Source: Hyperoplus lanceolatus (Eukaryota; Chordata; Actinopteri; Uranoscopiformes; Ammodytidae). From it: a stretch of DNA of 64,000 bases. Numbering within the stretch: position 1 is the stretch's first letter; each line of letters opens with the position of its first letter. The stretch is taken from contig CM049396.1 in assembly GCA_026929865.2 (NCBI GenBank), positions 22,944,001-23,008,000 of the forward strand. The letters are read 5' to 3'. Below are positions 27,148 to 45,700 of the stretch, piece by piece. The position numbers and the translations under genes are program-made. The notes under the pieces were generated by a model. The model ran no database searches and was not told the origin of the DNA. It saw only the letters and a program-made list of their open reading frames with translations.

Positions 27148-28439
27148 TATGCATGTGATTGCGTCAGAGCACTACAGGTCTTCTGGACTGGACGCTGAAC
27201 AAGGTCCTCCACCATAGAAAGTATTTACAGCTTCTACAATTCCAGTTGAATCACCTTAATGCTTAATGAACACAAGTTGTCTTTAAAGTGGGAACGTCCA
27301 TGTCTAGGGGTCATTGAGTTAGATACATTAATATCAAACTAACTTAAAACAATATATTCACATATCATATATTTTATTGCTGTCTGTATTGCTGCTGCTG
27401 TATTGCTGTTGGGGGTATAGTAGAAAACGGTAAGCCTGTTCATTTAAAGTGCAAACTTTTCAGTGACAGCTGTGTGGGATGCATGTCTTCAGTTGGCCAC
27501 AAGAGGTCTGCCATGCACTAGTATTTTCTCCAGCAAGCTAATGCTGCCTTCACATACTGGGGGAAAATATTAAACTTACGGTAAACATCACAATACACAT
27601 TAACAACAACACAGTTGAGTGGAAGCCTGAATGGGACATGGTTTCTGTACACTCTCATGTTTATAAAATTGAACAGACAGTGCTCCTTTATACATGTCTA
27701 CAGTCTAAGCAACCTGGCAGCTAAAACATTGGTGAGTCCAGCTTTCTCTGGACAGTGTTTACGTGCTGCATTTCAGGATACAGTTTAGATTTTGCTTGGC
27801 AAATATGGTATAAACATTGACTGAGTATTACGCCTACTGAACAGCATTTAACAAAAAACTGGAAATCACAAATTAGTATTTCTAAAGACTTCTGCAAGTC
27901 TACTTTTGATTTGATTTGATTCAATTTATTTCAGACATATCAGTGATACAAAACAAAATGAAAAGCATGGAAATACAACAAACAAAAAATTATGTTTTCA
28001 CAAAAAAAATAAAAAAAATAATCTGTATTGCTGAGATATGCCTGAAAAGGAGCAGGAAGAAGTATACACTTATTTAATCCTACCCCTTTTCCATAGTAAA
28101 AAAAATAAAAAATAATAATACTTTTTCTAGCTCGGTAAAACAAAGTGTTGTGTTATTTTTAGGTCCCCTTATTTAACGTCTTTAACAAATGTTGAAAAAA
28201 GAAGTGCCTTACTTGTTGATTTACTTTTTTATTAATGTCTTATTTTATATACTTATTGTTTTTTGATTGTAGTCATTCTGTTTTATTTCTCATACTGCCT
28301 TAGAGACATTTATAAAGGGTTAAGTGATATAAAATCGTCTGTTTTGTATTTAAAAAACTTTGAATTTAAAAAGGAAAGGAAACAAAAGCTCGGTTTAGCT
28401 CGGTTAGCCCATAGAAAATACGAGGAGCACTTAAACGCA
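27148..28439. other. No gene recognised; LINE 3' end at 27902-28143
   Basis: The only identifiable content is a minus-strand LINE 3' end (see separate entry). The rest is AT-rich intergenic or intronic DNA. Confidence 0.4.
27902..28143 (-). mobile_element. LINE 3' untranslated fragment with TTTGA tail
   Basis: Read on the minus strand it contains AAAGGGGTAGGATTAAATAA, then TTCTTCCTGCTCCTTTTCAG, and ends in AATAAATTGAATCAAATCAA repeats. This is the common 3' end of a fish non-LTR retrotransposon family. It contains no coding sequence. Confidence 0.55.
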
Positions 28440-32775: not shown

Positions 32776-33497
32776 TGTATTATCAAACTCTGTGGCGTAC
32801 CATACATTTGTTCCATGGCATTGTTTGTGCAGTGATTCTGCACATTTTGTACATTCAAATATTTAGATGAAAGTAAAATGGCAACTCACGGGGGCAGATG
32901 TCTATTGGCGCTTTTCCACCGCACATGTAGCTCGACTCAACTTGGTTTGGTAGCAGCACGGGTCGTTTTCCACCGCAAATAGTACCTGCTGAACGTGGGC
33001 GGGGTCGTCGTAAGGGGCTGAAAGCCTACTCCGGAGCAAAGTAGCAAAGCAGAAATTACGAGCAGTTGTTGCACTATTAACTGAACCAACCGCCAAAAAC
33101 ACGGATGAAAAATGTTTAAGAAATACCCCCCTAGTATCTGTTTGCTAAAAGAAGTAGAAGAATATTGCTACGGGCCATTAAAAGGGATGGTTGTTGTCCC
33201 GATGTGTGACTCTGCCACACAGTCAGCTGTAGGGATGCGTCACGTACATCCCTATGCACGTTAACACGGGCATGATAAAGTTGACTGTTTAGTGCTTGTT
33301 TCAGGATATAGGTGAGTCAATCTATGAAAAAAAAGGGCTTAACCCCCAAAAAATTGATACAAAAGGTTTTTCAATGGATTCCTGTAGTATTTGGTGTGCT
33401 GAATAACATACTAAAAGTCTACCAAAATATACCTCCCAGAAAGCCCTCATTTCCAAGATGGCGGCCAAAATGGCGGCGGGGAGCTTGTAATGGCTAT

Positions 33498-33909
33498 GGT
33501 TGCGTTCCGAATCGCATACTCTTTCTTTTTTTTTATATTCTACATACTACATCTGATGATAAAAAGAATCTAGTTAGGATGCAGTAGGCATACTATTGGG
33601 ACATACTTTACTCTCTTATTTCATCATAACATTGCGCCTTGATCTTGCCTCTTGCTTTTATATCCGTCGCATCCCCGTTTGTTTTCATATGGAGGCTTCG
33701 TTGATGTGACGTCACTTCACGTGCACACTGGATTGTGGGTCAGAATCGCCCAAATAGGATGCACTTTTCAACACTAACAATCTTGGCCGCATGAAGTAGG
33801 ACATCCGGGTACTTCTAACCATCCTAAATCTGGCCACAAGAATCGGGACATCCTAAAACCTTTTTTCTACATACTATATAGTAGAAAGTATGCGATTCGG
33901 AACGCAACC
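33498..33909. mobile_element. PIF/Harbinger-like MITE (412 bp)
   Basis: Ends GGTTGCGTTCCGAATCGCAT and its inverse ATGCGATTCGGAACGCAACC. TAT flanks both sides (33495-33497, 33910-33912). Removing the element plus one TAT restores the host TIR reading ATGGCTATATCTCAA. It is non-coding. Confidence 0.9.
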
Positions 33910-34130
33910 TATATCTCAAATTGAAAAAATGTTGCAAAGGAATTTTCAACTGATTTTGGTACCTCTGGACATGCTTAGGAACATACTAAAAATCTAGGAA
34001 AATACACCTTCCGGAAAGGCTTCATTTTCAAGATGGCGTCCAAAATGGTTGCCGGCCAAGCTTAAAATGGCTATATATCTCAATATAAAAAGATTATTCG
34101 AATGATTTTTCACTTGATTCTGGTACCTGC

Positions 34131-35525
34131 TAGGGGTGTAACGATACACGTATTTGTACCGTACCGTGACGGTACAGGCACGTATTTGGTGTTACAGAGG
34201 TAGACCGCGGTCCGTTTGTGGCGTAGCCTACATAGCGTTAATATATGACGAATGTACAGGCTTGTTTTGCGGTGTGGAACTTAAAACTTGTAGTCGGAGT
34301 TCCCCCCGGACCATTTAGCCTCCGGCTCGCTCGCACGTGCGCATTAGCAGCCAGCGAGAGTCTGTTATCTCCATGGTGAGCACAGCATGAGGGTGCAGTG
34401 TTGCTAACTTAGCAACTTTTCATAGCCCTCTGGCGACTTTTTTTTTTTTTTCAAAAAAGCGACTAGCGACAAATCTAGCTACTTTTTCTGGTGTTATTGG
34501 TGACTTTTGGAGACTCTGTTGCTAAAGCATGTATCGCGCTTTACTTCTAAACGAGCAGCGGCTGGCTCCCGAGGCTCCTGCCTCCTCCCAGAGCACTGAC
34601 AGGCGGCCGAGTCCTCACGCAGCAGTCCCTCCCAGCTGCGGTCAGAGCAGGAGATACACACCTCTCCGCTCAAGTGTTCCGTTTGCATCACTATTAGCAG
34701 TTATAGCAGCGTTCCCCCCTCTTCTACAGTCTATGAGTAGTGCAAATAAAGATGTTATACAGTGCTTTCGAACAGAGAGCGAACTGCGTGGCGAAAGACA
34801 ACAGGAAACCGGAGCTTGCAGGCGTACCCCTGTCATTCAAATCCCGCTTGAGGGATAACTTCGGATTCCAGTAGAATTATGAAAACAGTGATAAACGTGT
34901 GGAACAATGTCGGCACACAGGTTATTGTTTCACCGCGATCGCCTATGTAGGAGCCAACCATGGACATATAAAGGGAGCCAACACGTTGAACATGCATACG
35001 CATTTGAAAAGGCACCATCCAGGTCTTACTATCACCGTTACTGGGAATGAAAAATTGAGCTGTGCAAACACAGACAGTATTTTCTATTTTATACTGAAAA
35101 TACATAAGCTGTCATTTAATTAGTTGCACTTTTATTTGATAATTGTTATATTTATAAGAGCACTTAGAGCTGCAGTAATATTTTATTTTTTTAAAGTCAA
35201 AAATACCTTAAAGAAGACATACCCTTTTTTTACATACCAGCTTACAGAGCCTGCTGAGCATTAACACTGGCTTTTTTTCACTGCAATTTTAGTTTATGCT
35301 GCACATTCACTAGTATTTAATAAGTATTTTATTTATTGGAGAATTGCAGCAGTATTCTTTTTAGATTTGTTAGGCCTATGCATTTTATTTGTATGTTACA
35401 TACTGTCAGCTAGTTAAAACTGTTCATTCTCCCTTAACTATGAACCGTACCGTACTGTACCGTACTGTGACTTCAAAACCGAGGTACGTACCGAACCGTG
35501 ACTTTAGTGTACCGTTACACCCCTA
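34131..35525 (+). mobile_element. hAT element with BED-finger remnant (1.4 kb)
   Basis: Ends TAGGGGTGTAACGATACACG and GTGTACCGTTACACCCCTA. The 8-bp duplication GTACCTGC is perfect (34123-34130, 35526-35533). Bases 34396-34760 are homologous to the first ~350 bp of the separate hAT at 43018, so this element is a mosaic. Around 34925-35030 a frame encodes GANTLNMHTHLKRHHPG, the His-containing half of a BED zinc finger, the usual N-terminal domain of hAT transposases. The rest of the transposase is gone. Confidence 0.88.
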
Positions 35526-37111
35526 GTACCTGCAAATATGCTTATGAACATACTAACAATCTAGGAAAATATACTTCCCAGAAAGGTTTCATTTTCATAA
35601 TGGCGTCCAAAATGGCGGCCGGGAGCGTAGAATGGCTATATCTCAAATGGAAAATGTTACAAAAGAATGTCAACTGATTCTGGTACCTCTATACATTAAG
35701 AACGTGCGACAAATCTAGGTAAATATAACTGCATTTTCTTCCAGAGAAATATTTAAAACCGATCCACAGACCGAATAGCCTGGAATGTGTCCATATCTGT
35801 TTGATTCAGACTTGATTGTATTGGTGACTCTGAAAATGGTATAACATTATAAGCATCACCAAATGTTTACCAGACAGTGGGAAAGCTTTTTCAAGCAATG
35901 GTTGAACAGTCTGAAGCTATGTATACCTCACTAGTTAAGGGTGAAATGCCATTAGAAACAGTGTTTATATCAGAGACCCTCATTAGAATAAATGAAGAGA
36001 TGGGGAAAAGGAAGATGGAACTGTGTGCTCAATCCAAGACAAGTCAGTTGTGGCTAAATTACTAAAACATGTTAGAAGTTGCTAGGTCACTGAAAACGGC
36101 AGATCGCACAGGTTCTTGGCTTTTGCACCTACGCGCTGTTTCTGACTGCATGCCGATTCTCGCTGCGGCTGGGCATTACAAGTACTTGAAATCGGTACAC
36201 TTTTATGTCTAAGAGATGAGTCAGCTTCACATCAACCACCCAGATGTGTTCAGAAAATTCAAAATGGGTTTTCATGTTATCCGTCGCAGCAGCCAGTCAT
36301 GGGCAGGCCTCAGCTCAGATCTTGTCATCGAGACGACATTGATGAGGTCATTGAAGACTACCGGTAGTATGATGCATGAAAGTGGAATGACTGACAATCA
36401 GAGAGCCCTTTGGACCATGTCAAAGTGCATAACATCAGAGTACAACACCGCAATGCAGGAGTTCACAAACCAGACATACACAACATCAGAACAGCACAAG
36501 GACTCAACAGAGGCAAGGATGAAAAGGGATGCTGCTGACCTGGAGAAGATCACTTCAAAACTTGCTATATGGTCACCTGTCTCTCCAGACTCTTCTTTAA
36601 GGAATGTTGTTACAGGTGTTGTTGCTGAGGACGCAGTGAACGTGCATGATTATGACTCTGTTGGACGCAATATCATGCACAAAATGATTGGACAGCCTGC
36701 ATTCTCATTTAGTAGAAAGGATAAAGCCATAACCCTTGGACAAAAATCATCTATCAAGGTTGCTCCTGATCGAACAATTGATTCTGCACTTCTTTTTCAA
36801 CGTTTCCTGATTGTCTCCCAAACTGGAGAGCTATCATTGGAGGAGGTTATGCGTTACGAACTCAGTCATTTCCCTCCTGCCCCCTTTGAAGCTGGAAACA
36901 TCTTCCGCAAGGCTGATAAACCACAACTTGCGCATGTTCATTCATTTCATTCATTTTCCTTTATTTATTCTCGAAAGATCAATTGAGGTTACCCTCTTTT
37001 ACAATGACGTCGAGACAGATACACAATATACAATGAGAATACACAACAAGCTTACAAAGAGACAACAACAATTAAAACATTCAGATCAATTGAATAAAAT
37101 AGAACAATAGC

Positions 37112-40100
37112 CTAATTAAAACAGTTACAAGTGGAGTGGGGCTGATTCAAAATAATAACTTTAAATTGGTTAACAGTTATGAGTGTATTTATTTTAATTT
37201 GATGTTGTAGGCTGTTCCAGGAGTCAGGGGCACTGTGGCTAAAAGCAGTCTTACCAAGGTCAGACCGGGCGTATGGAACATATAACATGAGCATTTCAGT
37301 TGAGCGGGTTTGATAAAGCCCATCTGAGATATGCAGCATTGTTGTCAAATAGAGTGGCAGCTTTCCGGTCAGGGCTTTATATATAAAAATATGCCAATGT
37401 GCATCACGTCTCTCTTTAAGAGAGGACCAACCAACCTTTTCATATAAAAGACAATGGTGAGTGTCATAAGCATCTCCTGTAATGAACCTTAAGGCAGAGT
37501 GAAAAACGGAGTCTAGGAGTTTAAGACATGATTGAGATGCATGCCTATAAACCACATCACCGTAATCAAGGACAGACATAAAAACTGCCTCAATAATCCT
37601 TTTCCTACTGAACAACGGGAAGGTGGCTCTGTTCCTATAAAAATATCCAATCTTTTGTCGCAGACGACAGACAAGATTTTTTATGTGAAATTTAAAAGAT
37701 ATTTTTTCATCTATCCAGATGCCGAGATATTTATATTCAGTGACTCTTTCAATTTGAGATCCATTATTTGTATGAATATTAAGATCATTAAAATGTATAG
37801 TTCTTGCTCTGGAGAAACACATATATTTTGTTTTGTCTGTATTAAGAACAAGCCTGAGGTCCACTAGACAGTCCTGCAGGGTGTTAAAAGAGCTCTGAAG
37901 GTTCTGAACAGATTGATGGACCAAATCAGAAATGCAATACAGTACAGTGTCGTCAGCATACAAATGGGCTTGACAGTTTTGTAGCGATGAAACAATGTTA
38001 TTGATGTAAATTGTGAATAGGACTGGACCTAAAATTGAGCCCTGCGGAACACCATTTGTAACTGTTAAAAACTCAGTTTGGTGGCTTCCCAGTTTTACTG
38101 ACTGCTGTCTATCAGAGAGATAATCCCTAAACCAGCTACATGTAGAATAATCAAAACCAATATCATGCAGCCTCTGTAAAAGCAAATGGTGATCTAAAGT
38201 ATCAAAGGCTTTTGACAGATCAACAAAAAGTGCTGCACAGTGCTTTTTATTGTCGATAGCTGTAACAATGTTGTCTAAGACCAAAGTGACAGCAGATACA
38301 GTACTGTGACCTGCCCTGAAACCAGATTGAAATGGGCTCAGAATGGAAGCACTGGATAAAAAGGTTTTCAACTGATTATTAATAACTGATTCTAGGATTT
38401 TTGCCAGGCATGGGAGTTTTGAAATTGGCCTGTAATTATTGAGATCACTTTTGTCACCCCCTTTATGCAATGGGATGACATGAGCTTTTTTCCAAACTTT
38501 AGGAACAATACCGGAGGAGATGGAAAGATTAAAAATATGGGTTATTTGTTTTGATATTATATGTGTAGAGAGATTGATTGAAAATGGGTCCAAATTGTCC
38601 TCCCCCATATACTTCCTGGGGTTGATGGCTAGAAGCGCATCTACAACAACACTTGTTGGAACTGGAACAAGGCTAAAAAGAGGAGTTTGAGAGACAGGCG
38701 GTACGTTACTACTAGTTGTAGAGGGTGTACATCCTCCATTCTGAAAAAGTTGACCAGCAGCTAAAAAATGTTTATTAAAAGCTAAACCAATCTCTTTCTG
38801 GTCATTTAAAATCTGACCATTTATTTTTATCTGACTGGGAACAGTGCTTGACTTGTTTATATTATAATAGACAGCCTTCCAAAATAATGCAGGGTTGGAG
38901 TAGCAGTTGGAAATTAAATCAAGGTAGTAATCCGATTTAGTTTTCCTAACCATGGTCGTGCACCTATTTCTGATTTGTCTAAAAACTGTCCAATTAAAAT
39001 CTCCAGAGCGTCTGGCTAGAGACCATGCTTTATTTCTCTCTATAAATAAGTCAGACAGCTCATTGGTAAACCAGGGGTTCGATCTATTTTTTACCCTGTA
39101 CTTTTTTTGGGGTGCATGATGATTCAAAATTGAGGTGAAGGTATTGGTGAAAAAATCCAAGGCTAATTCAACATCAGATATTTGAGTTGTGAGATGAATA
39201 TCACTGTGATGGAGTTCATTCAAAAAGGCTTGCTGGTTAAAACCTTTAAAATTACGCTTAATAATGATTTTAGGTTGACATTTTTTTAGGTGAATGCTTC
39301 TGATACAGGCCACCGGGCAGTGATCACTGATCCCAAGGTCAAAGACACCAGCAGAAACTATTTTATTGATTTGGTTTGATAATATTAAATCAATCAAAGT
39401 TGATTTAACTGGGTTTTTTAGATTGGGTCTTGTAGGCTCAGTTATTATTTGTGTAAGATTTAGGTTGCTACAGATTTCTTTGAAAGGTTCAGAGGCACCA
39501 GAAAGCCAGTCTATGTTAAAATCACCCATCACAATGACTTCTCTATTTACATATGGAGAGATTAAATGTGCTAGCTCAGACAAGGAGCTATTTTGCGCAG
39601 AAGGAGGCCTGTACACACCAATTACAACAAAACAATCATTGGATGATAAAGACAATTCCAGTGCAATAAATTCAAAGCAGCTACGAACAGAGACAGCATG
39701 TAATAATGTTACAGAATAATGAGATTTAACGTAGGTCCTGTCTATTCTGAATAAATTATAGCCATTTATTTCCACCATAGAGTCATGTGTACTGCTCTTC
39801 AGCCATGATTCAGTCAGAACCAAGACATCTGGGTCAGCCTGAGACACTAAGATCTTAACATGGTCCAATTTATTGTGCTGAAGCAAACTTCTAATGTTTA
39901 AATGAAGAAAACCCAAACCCTTTCTTAATTTGAGGATGTTTGGTGAGTTTATCTTTGATATGCTCATGTCCGGGTTATCAGCAGCTATGTGGTCCAACAC
40001 AATTGACTTATTACACAAAATAGGTACAGTTTTCAAGTTACTTGTAATCCCAAGTGGTCTGTGGCGTGACCTGTATGATCTATGTGGAGGGATTAATGAT

Positions 40101-40198
40101 GATCTGACAGACTGACATACAGGGATTGGGTGAGTTTTTAAAGTAATGGATGTTCCAGGCCTGGAGGGGGCGCTAGATGCATGGGGACTAGTAGTCAT
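37112..40198 (-). CDS. L2-type LINE ORF2: endonuclease and reverse transcriptase (1028 aa)
   Basis: It encodes the enzyme that nicks target DNA and reverse-transcribes the LINE RNA at the nick. One uninterrupted frame from ATG at 40198 to TAA. The AP-like endonuclease spans about 95-300: HLNIRSL (N101), LTESWL (E130), YRPPS (Y196), MGDFNID (D226, N228) and SDHCPV (D292, H293). The reverse transcriptase spans about 480-800: PLHKGGDKSDLNNYRPIS, FVDLSKAFDTLDH, GVPQGSILGP and catalytic YADD at 747-750. The C-terminus ends at SVNQFKVIIL-like sequence as in the family. One oddity: between FRIDR (about 150-154) and YVKSH the glycine-rich GGGVA-type segment usual in this family is absent, a small in-frame deletion that may weaken the nuclease. 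Confidence 0.9.
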   Translation of the reverse strand: MTTSPHASSAPSRPGTSITLKTHPIPVCQSVRSSLIPPHRSYRSRHRPLGITSNLKTVPILCNKSIVLDHIAADNPDMSISKINSPNILKLRKGLGFLHLNIRSLLQHNKLDHVKILVSQADPDVLVLTESWLKSSTHDSMVEINGYNLFRIDRTYVKSHYSVTLLHAVSVRSCFEFIALELSLSSNDCFVVIGVYRPPSAQNSSLSELAHLISPYVNREVIVMGDFNIDWLSGASEPFKEICSNLNLTQIITEPTRPNLKNPVKSTLIDLILSNQINKIVSAGVFDLGISDHCPVACIRSIHLKKCQPKIIIKRNFKGFNQQAFLNELHHSDIHLTTQISDVELALDFFTNTFTSILNHHAPQKKYRVKNRSNPWFTNELSDLFIERNKAWSLARRSGDFNWTVFRQIRNRCTTMVRKTKSDYYLDLISNCYSNPALFWKAVYYNINKSSTVPSQIKINGQILNDQKEIGLAFNKHFLAAGQLFQNGGCTPSTTSSNVPPVSQTPLFSLVPVPTSVVVDALLAINPRKYMGEDNLDPFSINLSTHIISKQITHIFNLSISSGIVPKVWKKAHVIPLHKGGDKSDLNNYRPISKLPCLAKILESVINNQLKTFLSSASILSPFQSGFRAGHSTVSAVTLVLDNIVTAIDNKKHCAALFVDLSKAFDTLDHHLLLQRLHDIGFDYSTCSWFRDYLSDRQQSVKLGSHQTEFLTVTNGVPQGSILGPVLFTIYINNIVSSLQNCQAHLYADDTVLYCISDLVHQSVQNLQSSFNTLQDCLVDLRLVLNTDKTKYMCFSRARTIHFNDLNIHTNNGSQIERVTEYKYLGIWIDEKISFKFHIKNLVCRLRQKIGYFYRNRATFPLFSRKRIIEAVFMSVLDYGDVVYRHASQSCLKLLDSVFHSALRFITGDAYDTHHCLLYEKVGWSSLKERRDAHWHIFIYKALTGKLPLYLTTMLHISDGLYQTRSTEMLMLYVPYARSDLGKTAFSHSAPDSWNSLQHQIKINTLITVNQFKVIILNQPHSTCNCFN

Positions 40199-40252
40199 GG
40201 AGGCTAAGCCACATGAGCTAAATACCTCTTGACTGACCAGGTGTGGAGATAG

Positions 40253-40870
40253 TCAAACTTGCTGGACAGAGTTTGCAAGAGGAGTGACGCTAGGAACTGA
40301 TTTTATTGTTAAGAGTATGTTGCTGGCCAGAAGATGTTTCCCTTCTTTGTTTAAATGCAAACCATCGCTGGCAAAGTAAGTCGGTCTGTTCCAGAAAACG
40401 TTAAAATTGTCAACAAAGGGAATGCCCATGGAGAGACAATATTGTTTGAGCCAAACATGAAGTTGGCGTGCGCGGCTGAATTTGATGTCACCGAATCGAG
40501 GCGAAGGCATGGGACCAGAGACGATACATTGTTTCCCAGCGGCCAGGACGGAGTCGATTAGGATTTTAAAATCAGATTTAAGACTTTCTGACTTTTCTGA
40601 CTTAAGGTCATTTGAGCCGACATGTGTTACAACCATAGATGCAGCGGGATTACTGTGGATAATGTGTGGAAGCACTGAGTTGATGTGGGATACCTGGGCA
40701 CCAGGATAGCAGAAGGTCTCCGCCCTTGGCAGGAGAACTTGTCGGACCATGGATGAGCCAACGAGGAGGCACTGGAGCTCCGCTGCTCGGCCCTGCTGCG
40801 CCTCAGAGCAACCATGTGAGTGCCGGGCTGGATCATTAGCCTGCAGTGTTGATGCCCGCGGACCAGGGCG
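40253..40870 (-). pseudogene. L2-type LINE ORF1: SGNH/GDSL esterase-like domain, N-terminus broken
   Basis: ORF1 proteins of L2/CR1 elements bind the RNA and many carry an esterase-like domain. Here the open frame (ATG-led part 40750-40253, open to about 40870) holds the blocks LVGSSMVRQV (block I serine), VVTHVGSNDLK (block III) and ASDGLHLNKEGKHLLA (catalytic Asp-x-x-His). Upstream, a Pro/Ser/Ala-rich N-terminal part lies in another frame (to about 41327), so a frameshift separates the two. It lies about 55 bp upstream of ORF2, as expected. Confidence 0.75.
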
Positions 40871-42057
40871 AAGCTGCGCAGCATCCTACGTCGGTTCTCT
40901 CCCGTGTTGGAACGACGAGACGTCTGGGAAACACCGGCCACAGGTGGAAAGGAGACAGCGGCGGCGTAGGAAGCGGCGGCGGGCAGCGAAGCGACAGCGG
41001 AGGAAGAGGAGGCGGCGGGCGTCGGAACAGCGGAGGTGGAGGACGAGGTGGGACGTGCCAGGGCAGTGGTGGTATCCCTGTCCACAGGTGAACCGTGGCC
41101 AACTGGACGTGACTGGAACCGGGGAGGAGAGCTAGAGCCATTTTCCATTGATGGAAACTCCTGAAGGCTCATAGCTTCAAATCTGTTGCCAAGCTCCAGG
41201 CGCTGCGGTGCTGGGGGAGTCCGCGGATGACCACAATGGTTACCCTTGCGGACTGTTGACCAGTTTATCGGCCTAACAGGGGTCGAGCTCAGCGGGAATT
41301 GTCCATCCCCTTTGTTAATAATCTGTAATCTGTGATCATGCAAGTGATGCAATCCTAGATACTGTACCAGAAACAGATCATTATGTTCTTGATGGAGGTT
41401 CACTCCTTCACCGAATACCATGGAAGCACGGACAAAGCTATGGTAAAATTGCGCAGTCATATGCAGACTTCACCATCCAACATTATGGCTCAGCTACAAC
41501 CATTGTGTTCGATGGCTATAGGGATGGGCCATCCATTAAAGACAACACACATCAAAGAAGAGGAAACAATATTCATCCCAATGTCAACTTCACTGCTGAG
41601 ACAGAGTTCTCAGGTAAGAAGGAGGAGTTCATGTCAAGAGATCTGAATAAACAGAGGCTGATCCAAATGATAAGCGATGAGTTGAAAGAAAGGGGTTGCA
41701 CTGTGGTCAATTCAATTGGAGATGCTGATGTAGACATCGTAAGGGAATCATCTCTTCTTCACACCACTACGCTGATTGGAGAAGATACAGATCTCCTTGT
41801 CTTACTACTTCACTATGGGCCGGTTTCACAGACAAGGCTTAAGCCTAGTCCAAGACTAAAATGCCTGTTGAGCTGGATTAATTCAAAACTACTTGCACAG
41901 GCTCAGTTTAAAATAGTCCTAGATTAAAGATATTCTGGATTAAACAAAGCCAATTGCAAAATGGACGACTAGAGCTACTCTAGGTCTAAATTTGAGTTTA
42001 AATTAATCCTCCAAAGAGGCAGGTTTAACTTCAGCTTAGTCGTGTTTGTGAGAGAGC

Positions 42058-42219
42058 ATGGACTATTTGAACTATCTAAATGAAGACCAACTCCCACTGC
42101 AGAGGCCAGCCAGAAGAGTACTTGTGGATAGGTCTTATCCAAAACATGTATTTGATGAACTTACATTTCGAGACCGCTTTCAATATGGAAAATGCACTGA
42201 AAATAACAACTTTGCTTGA
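42058..42219 (+). pseudogene. Harbinger transposase N-terminal remnant (53 aa)
   Basis: ATG at 42058 to TGA at 42219. The end reads YPKHVFDELTFRDRFQYGK, which resembles the N-terminal FRxRFRxxK block of Harbinger transposases. The catalytic part is absent. It may represent the first exon of the parental gene. The identification rests on a short motif and the context. Confidence 0.5.
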
Positions 42220-43017
42220 GTTTATTAGATGGATGCATTTAAATTGAAGATGTATTCAGCATAATAAAATGGGTGTCTAAAACAATTCTGTTTTCAAATG
42301 TGGTTGTTGTGATCTAAAACACTGACACACATGAATAACAAAATGACAAAACACAACATGAACACCTTTTATTTTCTACTTATATCTTCACTGTGATTAG
42401 TAATCACAATTGTCACAGTACTGTTTGAATCATAGCTCTCTCTTCCAACTTCATGTCCAATTCCATCTGTATAATTTTCATTTTCATGTCATACTTATTT
42501 CAGATATTGCATTTTCTGTTCATGGAATTCTCGGGCTAACTTTCATGCAACATCATCTTTTTTGTCCTTTGTTGAAATGTTGTGGCAAGCTCTTCTTTAA
42601 AGCGAGATGCGGGTTTTTCCAGAGTCTATCAGTGCAGATATCATTAAATATAATGTCAAAATTATAAATGAGAAAGATGTGAAATACCGATAATGATGAA
42701 GATAACCTGAAGTTGGTGTATTGTTCTCTTAGTAAAATTTTCATTAGAATTTAATTTGTTGCAAATTGCGGCCCAACTATTTATTTGCTCAGTCCCAGCA
42801 GTATGGCTTTTAGATTCAATAACCGGATGGTTTCAAACTATTCTTTTTTAAGAGATTTTTTTCAAATTCATTAAAGTTTATTGACGGGATTTTTTTAGCC
42901 TCTGCCATTGTTTTTTCTCACAAGCAATGGTGTTTCTGCTCCACTCCGGGTTTTTATGATCACCGTTGGACCAGCAGCATGTGCTCATGGGCAGGTGTTT
43001 ACAATCAGGCTTACTTA

Positions 43018-43644
43018 CAGTGTTGCCAACTTAGCGATTTTGTCCCTATATTTAGCGACTTTTCAGCCCCCCTGGCAACTTTTTTTTAAAACAGCGACAA
43101 GCGACACATCTAGCTTTTTTTTCTGGTGTAATTGGTGACTTTTTCGCCGAAGCAAGTATCACTTTTAACGCTTCTCAACGAGCAGCGGGAGCCTCCCGGC
43201 CCGTCCCCCGTAACAGAGCACTGACAAACGGCCCGGTCCTCGCGCAGCAGCCCCTCACAGCTACGGTCAGAGCAGGAGATACACCTCTCCGCTCGTGTTC
43301 CGTTAGCATCACTATTAGCAGTTAGCAGCTTTTCCCACCTCTTCTACAGTCTACGAGTAGTGCAATTCAAAATTTTATGCAGTGCTTTTTTAAACCATGA
43401 GCATGTATGATTACTGCTAGACTTAACATTACCACGTTGGTTGTTTATGCGATTGTCACGTTCATAACACTAGAACATCGTCTATTCAAATATTACTGTA
43501 TAAAACCCCTGTCTACAAATATGCAAATTAGGCAATGACGTCATCTACAAATATGCAAATTAGGAAATGATGTCATCTAGCGACTTCTAGCGACTTTTTG
43601 GACAGCCAATAGCTACTTTCCTTACTGAAGAGTTGGCAACACTG
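43018..43644. mobile_element. hAT MITE (627 bp) with perfect 8-bp TSD
   Basis: Ends CAGTGTTGCCAACT and AGTTGGCAACACTG. Duplication CTTACTTA at 43010-43017 and 43645-43652. It inserted into the Harbinger remnant. Its first ~350 bp are related to 34396-34760. Confidence 0.92.
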
Positions 43645-44634
43645 CTTACTTACCTTACTCCAGGACTTCATAGTCTCAGACTAACTAAACCAAATCTAAG
43701 CCATATCTATGAAAGTGACTTAAACGTCCCAGTTTAACTAGTCCACATTAAGGCCTACTCCTGGCTTAATCTGTGAAACCGGCCCTTTGTACAGAGAGAT
43801 AGTAAGGGCGTTTATTTCAGATCAGACAAGTCAAAAGCTGATGGCAGTTTTAAAGTGTATGCCGTAAACCATTTAAAAGAAGTACTTGGACATGATATTT
43901 GTTCTCAGTTGATGTTCATCCATGCTCTCACTGGCTGTGATACAACTTCTCGGATCTTCGGGGTTGGCAAAAAGACTGCTTTCCAGAAGCTTGTAAAAGG
44001 GGATCCTGTCCTTCAATCTTGTGCCAATGCATTCATTGTCCCAGACCAGACCACAGAGGTGATTGATGACCTTGGGTGCCAAGTAAAGGCTGTCCTCTTT
44101 GGTGGAAAGTCACAGATTCCCTTGCAGCAATGGGATATAACATTTTCAGCAAGAAGGTTGTCTCAGCTTCATCAACTGTAACGCCTGAACGTCTGCCACC
44201 AACTGAATCTGTGACCAAATTTCACTGTCGTAGAGCTTACTACCAGGTCATGGTCTGGATGGAAACTGAAGATGGTATGGATGCCCTGAACTGGGGGTGG
44301 AGCCTGCAGGACAACAGATTTGTCCCACTCATGTCAACAATGAATGTTGCTCCAGACAGTCTCTTGAAGGTCATTCAATGTAACTGTACCACTGCCTGCA
44401 AGACACTCCGCTGCTCTTGCAGAAAATATGGACTACCTTGTACTACTGTCTGTGGACCATGTCAACTTAAGGAATGTGACAATCCACTTAACAAGTTTCT
44501 TCCAGAGGAGCCCGAAGATGATGATAAATAAAGACCACAATAAGTGTGGCATTTATGTTGTTCAACACCAACACCACCTTTCTAGTTACCAATGTAAGCT
44601 TACAGGCAGTCATTTTGAAAATGATGCCTTTCTA

Positions 44635-45231
44635 GCAGTTATATTTACCTAGATTTGTCGCACGTTCTTAATGTATAGAGGTACCAGAATCAGTTGAAAC
44701 ATTCTTTTGTAACATTTTCCATTTGAGATATAGCCATTCTACGCTCCCGGCCACCATTTTGGACGCCATTATGAAAATGAAGCCTTTTTGGGAGGTATAT
44801 TTTCCTAGATTGTTAGTATGTTCATAAGCTTATTTGCAGGTACCAGAATCAAGTGAAAAATCATTCGAATAATCTTTTTCTATTGAGATATATAGCCATT
44901 GGTGGCCACCATTTTGGACGCCATCTTGAAAATGAAGCCTTTCCGGAAGGTGTATTTTCCTAGATTTTTAGTATGTTCGTAAGCATGTCCAGAGGTACCA
45001 AAATCAGTTGAAAATTCCTTTGCAACATTTTTTCAATTTGAGATATAGCCATTTCAAGCTCTTCGCTGCCATTTCGGCCACCGTCTTGGAAATGAGGGCT
45101 TTCTGTGAGGTATATTTTGGTAGACTTTTAGTATGTTATTCAGCACACCAAATACTACTGGAATCCATTGAAAAACCTTTTGTATCAATTTTTTGGGGTT
45201 AAGCCCTTTTTTTCATAGATTGACTCACCTA
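44635..45231 (-). repeat. Right TIR of the XPG-like element
   Basis: Uninterrupted ~597-bp inverted copy of the left TIR, starting GCAGTTATATTTACCTAGAT and ending GATTGACTCACCTA. Three ~160-bp subunits with CCATTTTGGACGCCAT blocks lie near 44755, 44910 and 45070. Confidence 0.88.
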
Positions 45232-45700
45232 ATACGTGTTTTCAAATGCAAGCCGTGTCTCTGCCTGAATATTTTATTGAGGTAATCAGTTCAGTCCGAG
45301 GCTTGTAATGTAATCGCCCGCTATCATGTCTGTCCCAGCTGGCTACTATTTAGCCTAGCTGCCCTACATGTCTCCTCTCGTATGTAAGTAACTTCCCCAA
45401 CAACCAACACTGGGTGAGCTTAGCGAATATATGGAAAATAAATTCGGATCTGTGATGCAAATCAAATGAAAGAGAGCCAGAGAAGGCTGCACGCGGCGTA
45501 AATACACTCAAAAGTCCCAGAGAGTTGGGGAGAATAAACAACAGAATGAAGCCGGTAGTCTCTGGCCACTGATTGGCCAGACAATAGTCTCTGGCCAATC
45601 AGTGGCCGGCCGTCTGCCGACGTCACCTTTTAGCATCGGCTCAGCTCGCTTGGAACCTAGAGCGAGGCGATACCAAAAAAGCAGCTGCTACGTGGTACCA

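Follow-up and report, generated by a model that had tools for sequence, protein, structure and literature searches.

Introduction

How a transposon that appears to encode a nuclease and no transposase could move is the question raised by one interval of the Hyperoplus lanceolatus genome. The window analysed in this study is a stretch of 64,000 nt (GCA_026929865.2, CM049396.1, positions 22,944,001-23,008,000, forward strand), and the element occupies positions 33309-45231 of it. A first-pass annotation had proposed that a FEN1-like protein mobilises this element without a DDE transposase. Our analysis contradicts that proposal: in complete relatives the nuclease is preceded by a DDE domain in the same protein, and the window copy only appeared to be transposase-free, having lost the segment with the first two catalytic Asp residues. 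Animal transposons of this kind have been described before, and the window copy is a new, dead member. The element very probably belongs with the AcademX cut-and-paste DNA transposons, a match made through published descriptions rather than by sequence. Decay of a known element type thereby accounts for what looked like transposition driven by FEN1 without a transposase.

Domain organisation of the element protein

Comparison of relatives predicts that a complete element encodes one protein of ~1,455 amino acids (aa). From the N-terminus, the order is a Cys/His region, which is probably zinc-binding, a region resembling a winged helix, a transposase of the DDE/RNase H fold into which a large helical segment is inserted, a nuclease resembling XPG/FEN1/Exo1 and, at the C-terminus, a CXC cluster. 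The DDE domain and the nuclease are parts of the same polypeptide. The D, D, E triad is invariant across the aligned relatives. In the full-length relatives, an RNase H fold with D-D-E was supported by residues and by fold; the window copy retains the E alone. The first-pass annotation had said that a match of the N-terminal residues to a known transposase would count against its proposal; such a transposase type was recognised by fold in the relatives, and the corresponding part is missing from the window copy.

For the nuclease part, the XPG/FEN1-like fold suggested earlier was borne out by profile and fold searches, which supported a PIN/XPG fold, and the motifs on which the suggestion was built (GDADVDIV, GEDTDLLVLLL and GCDTTSRIFGVGKKTA) are present in the translation. 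The relative P0001 (1,119 residues; 81% identical to the window copy in the nuclease part) has the seven conserved active-site acids in order (D728, D768, D838, D840, D862, D864 and D923), which we take to pair with residues of FEN1. An H3TH-type segment (GCDTTS..GxGK) is also present, and fold, residues and this segment together indicate an XPG/FEN1-type nuclease domain. A profile search of the PDB with the nuclease part alone gave Exo1 as the top match; the same search with the entire 50-sequence alignment gave no match, and with one relative alone it gave weak, unrelated chains only. Analysis of four pieces of the element protein and 11 relatives against Pfam revealed a single family above the cut-off, OST-HTH in the hagfish relative P0018; the naming of domains therefore rests on profile and fold searches. 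No helicase family was above the Pfam cut-off in the four pieces or in the 11 relatives, P0163 giving one sub-threshold HerA-type match (E 0.041).

Weak Pfam matches to DUF6589, below the cut-off, were observed in P0169 (residues 629-925, E 3.5e-6) and P0176 (residues 586-805, E 6.7e-5), where they overlap part of the DDE region. It is possible that DUF6589, to which no function is assigned, represents a related transposase; no paper in the collection searched names this family.

The gene in the window copy

The interval had been described as filled by one long, broken frame. This is not the case: of its 11.9 kb, nested insertions take up ~8.2 kb, and the coding sequence proper to the element amounts to only ~2.3 kb, split into pieces. 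Four coding pieces match residues ~355-1119 of P0001.

35889-36937, plus strand: coding piece 1, matching ~355 to ~705 of P0001 and interrupted by two in-frame TAA
41325-41816, plus strand: coding piece 2, first part of the XPG/FEN1-like nuclease, with LDGGSL, VFDGY, GDADVD and GEDTDLL
43786-44109, plus strand: coding piece 3, second part of the nuclease, with TGCDTTSRIFGVGKKTA (helix-hairpin-helix region)
44112-44531, plus strand: coding piece 4, C-terminal region in a different frame, with the CXC cluster of nine Cys noticed earlier

The gene is broken by stops, one frameshift and the nested insertions. Of the DDE residues, coding piece 1 keeps the conserved E (DLVIET) and has neither catalytic D. 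Upstream of P0001 residue 355 (P0121 residue 690), no match was found in the window or in the 19 fetched stretches tested. The interval 33309-45231 is a dead, non-autonomous copy that has lost the N-terminal half and an intact frame.

Terminal inverted repeats and target site

The exact inverted ends and the terminal inverted repeats (TIRs) of ~600 bp seen at first pass were both recovered. The element begins with TAGGTGAGTCAATC and ends with GATTGACTCACCTA; its terminal inverted ends lie at 33309-33351 and 45189-45231, and further inverted arms follow, the largest of 145-169 nt with 92-99% complementarity. With insertions set aside, each arm is ~600 bp. The left arm is in three parts with two insertions between them.

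33306-33308, no strand: left copy (ATA) of the 3-bp target-site duplication (TSD), from sequence and empty sites
33309-33497, plus strand: left TIR, outer part, 5'-TAGGTGAGTCAATC..., inverted arm to 45045-45231
33910-34130, plus strand: left TIR, middle part; 33909-34053 is 99% complementary to 44904-45048
35526-35732, plus strand: left TIR, inner part, complementary to 44635-44846
~44633-45231, minus strand: right TIR, continuous, ending ...GACTCACCTA-3'
45232-45234, no strand: right copy (ATA) of the 3-bp TSD, from sequence and empty sites

The right TIR contains three sub-repeats of 144 nt at 44749, 44904 and 45064 (spacing 155-160 nt), of which the second and third are 81% and 63% identical to the first. 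In the sister copy C11, whose arms are free of insertions like those in the left arm here, the two arms agree at 613 of 630 aligned positions.

The small flank duplication noted at first pass is 3 bp long. The insertion junctions read ATA/TAGG...CCTA/ATA, and a search with the flanks joined around a single ATA (184 bases) found end-to-end matches of 98% at all 40 places scored, these being the best 40 of 1,081 candidates; empty sites with a single ATA set the duplication length at 3 bp. The host sequence (33220-33308 and 45235-45318) is itself another high-copy repeat of the same genome. Since the target is a very high-copy repeat, it could serve to date recent insertions of many families.

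Nested insertions and other copies of the family

Borders of the nested insertions were defined by comparison with sister copies and are sharp. Four insertions, among them a miniature inverted-repeat transposable element (MITE)-like one and a long interspersed nuclear element (LINE), were identified.

33498-33909, no strand: MITE-like insertion, ends GGTTGCGTTCCGAATCGCATACT, TAT on both flanks
34131-35525, no strand: hAT-like insertion, ends TAGGGGTGTAACG..., 8-bp duplication GTACCTGC
~36938-41324, minus strand: LINE with GDSL-type ORF1, APE endonuclease and reverse transcriptase (RT), from Pfam; borders within a few bases
~41817-43785, no strand: Harbinger-like insertion, inverted ends GGGCCGGTTTCACAGA; borders within a few bases

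The names hAT-like and Harbinger-like are tentative assignments from the end sequences. The MITE-like and Harbinger-like insertions are present in the C7 copy and absent from the C4 and C11 copies; the hAT-like insertion and the LINE are absent from all three and, among the copies compared, are unique to the window copy. The LINE and the other inserts were rejected as parts of the element, each being missing from at least one sister copy. The earlier statement that no RT is present accordingly fails for the interval and holds for the element.

The TIR probe used initially was swamped by the nested MITE, so the uninterrupted right arm was used instead; it gave at least 47 matches in the genome (best 40 of 110 candidates scored). 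In addition to the window, 15 other places were examined. Both ends were found in nine, two of which represent one duplicated site, leaving eight independent sites; the remaining seven places showed one end or none within the stretch fetched. The duplicated site was observed on contig C3 (L048 and L049), where the same flanks occur twice, ~205 kb apart and in opposite orientation; these shared flanks mean that the segment carrying the element was duplicated. A 3-bp match was present at six of the eight independent sites (ATA, ATC, TGA, GTG, CAT and TGA), and the flanks did not match at the other two (TCT/TAG in C7 and TGA/TGT in C16). By our own arithmetic, the chance of at least six such matches in eight is ~4e-10. 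Left-end matches at window positions 27729, 39940 and 50645 in a loose 17-base end search were put down to chance.

The C7 and window copies are 98.7% identical, with no similarity between their flanks. As the two share two insertions at the same points, one of which disrupts the gene, and their flanks differ, one of them moved after the gene was broken; a transposase made elsewhere therefore acted in trans, either on the window copy or on its C7 twin. C7 has no duplication, and the window copy is therefore the better candidate for the mover. The locus offers a 3-bp duplication that the empty sites make unambiguous, and also evidence of movement in trans.

Coding matches were found in seven copies of the family (window, C7, C4, C11, C10, C20 and C22), all of which keep C-terminal and lack N-terminal coding sequence; in C20 and C22 only the last ~50-90 residues remain. 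Stops, frameshifts or insertions interrupt the gene in the window, C7, C4, C11 and C10 copies, and C20 has a frame break.

Related families and the N-terminal part of the protein

Search of the same genome with the protein revealed at least 51 matches (best 41 of 659 candidates scored). Among the matches listed, none of ~80% identity covers residues 1-354, which are covered by more distant families (25-61% identical there), and both protein halves lie on one strand within ~3.5 kb at 13 places at least. Four related-family stretches were read against P0121. L059 covers residues 344-1455, L060 covers 331-1455 and L061 covers 9-471 and 518-1455. In L060 and L061, TIRs of ~415-420 bp with TAG...CTA ends surround the gene, with 3-bp duplications TAT and CTC; no gene-spanning inverted pair was found for L058 or L059 within the fetched sequence. 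Bivalve relatives named include Mytilus and Argopecten.

L058 (contig C5; 64% identical) keeps the N-terminal and nuclease parts and has no match to residues 340-683, which hold the DDE aspartates; the same core was probably deleted independently in this family.

Two side observations concern the insertions. The RT/APE frame of the LINE (37112-40885, minus strand) is open over 1,046 aa from stop to stop, with Pfam matches to RVT_1 (E 2.4e-41), Exo_endo_phos_2 (1.6e-9) and Lipase_GDSL_2 (1e-9); the long open frame and the GDSL-esterase-type ORF1 suggest a young LINE. A repeat of ~80-88% identity in parts is shared by 34409-34768 in the hAT-like insertion and 43018-43458 in the Harbinger-like insertion, and also occurs in the C18 stretch (L045).

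Mechanism and alternative explanations

Ordinary DDE cut-and-paste is the most likely route of movement, with the transposase supplied in trans for the window copy. The DDE domain would cut and join at the ends of the TIRs, its cuts being staggered by 3 bp, the XPG domain would probably trim or cut flap- or hairpin-like intermediates, and the repeated TIR sub-units and Cys-rich parts may serve end recognition. A two-nuclease transposase, in which DDE cutting or strand transfer is joined by an obligatory XPG cut at the ends or flanking intermediates, is a tentative and rather doubtful extension; in that case both active sites would be required for movement, which to our knowledge has been shown for no eukaryotic cut-and-paste element. 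Because a second nuclease site is strictly conserved next to the DDE site, the role of the nuclease in transposition is directly testable. That the nuclease itself mobilises the element, with no DDE transposase involved, is highly improbable. The window copy and the fetched coding copies of its own family do keep nuclease and/or CXC sequence, no match being found in them for the region of the first two DDE aspartates, and nuclease residues are conserved as well as those of the DDE domain; however, nuclease-carrying relatives commonly have the DDE domain upstream in the same protein, the triad is invariant in the aligned relatives, and the gene-disrupting insertion common to the window and C7 copies means that at least one of them was not moved by its own product. 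With a DDE domain in complete relatives, FEN1-only chemistry is unneeded as well as contradicted. The shared loss of N-terminal coding sequence could also suggest that truncated XPG-CXC copies are retained as trans-acting, repressor-like regulators of intact elements; we give this almost no credence, as most of these copies have broken frames and their coding starts differ.

Assignment to AcademX has points against it. A Foldseek search with the DDE model found no significant match in the PDB, the best structural neighbour of the DDE part was the P element, and two relatives gave the weak DUF6589 matches described above. The comparison with Academ was made by description. The same DDE, XPG and CXC protein could on these grounds define a superfamily distinct from Academ, which we consider improbable: a nuclease and TSDs of 3-4 bp are reported for AcademX in the portion of PMC10045372 consulted, and Academ, listed among DDD/E superfamilies in the relevant part of PMC9587614, is recorded from three of four teleosts (PMC4746887, in part) and from bivalves. 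Curated bivalve Academ elements, recognised by a DDE/D profile, average 5,565 bp according to an excerpt of PMC10294476, which fits a gene for ~1,455 aa between TIRs and the bivalve relatives found here.

Comparison with known systems

The nuclease part resembles FEN1/XPG/Exo1 (Rad2) proteins in fold, in seven ordered acidic residues and in the helix-hairpin-helix-like GCDTTS..GxGK segment, and differs in its low identity (~13-17% over the fold) and in being fused within a transposon protein. P-element, hAT (Hermes), Transib and RAG1 proteins share the RNase H fold, the D, D, E residues and a large insertion before the E, whereas their terminal sequences and accessory domains are different. 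The TSDs of P, hAT, Transib and RAG have lengths other than 3 bp. The AcademX nuclease is presumably of the XPG type. In the portion of PMC10045372 consulted, which says only 'nuclease', Academ is divided into AcademH, with duplications of 9-10 bp, and AcademX, with 3-4 bp, matching an encoded helicase or nuclease, respectively. AcademH shares the superfamily name with the present element, in which, unlike AcademH, the duplication is 3 bp and no helicase family was above the Pfam cut-off in the relatives. The likeness to AcademX extends to an animal DNA transposon with a DDE transposase in its full-length relatives, an XPG-type nuclease in the element protein and 3-bp duplications at the empty sites, at six of the eight independent sites and at L060 and L061. 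Together, DDE transposase, nuclease and 3-bp duplication point to the AcademX lineage of Academ, from which the window copy differs in being inactive and having lost its DDE core.
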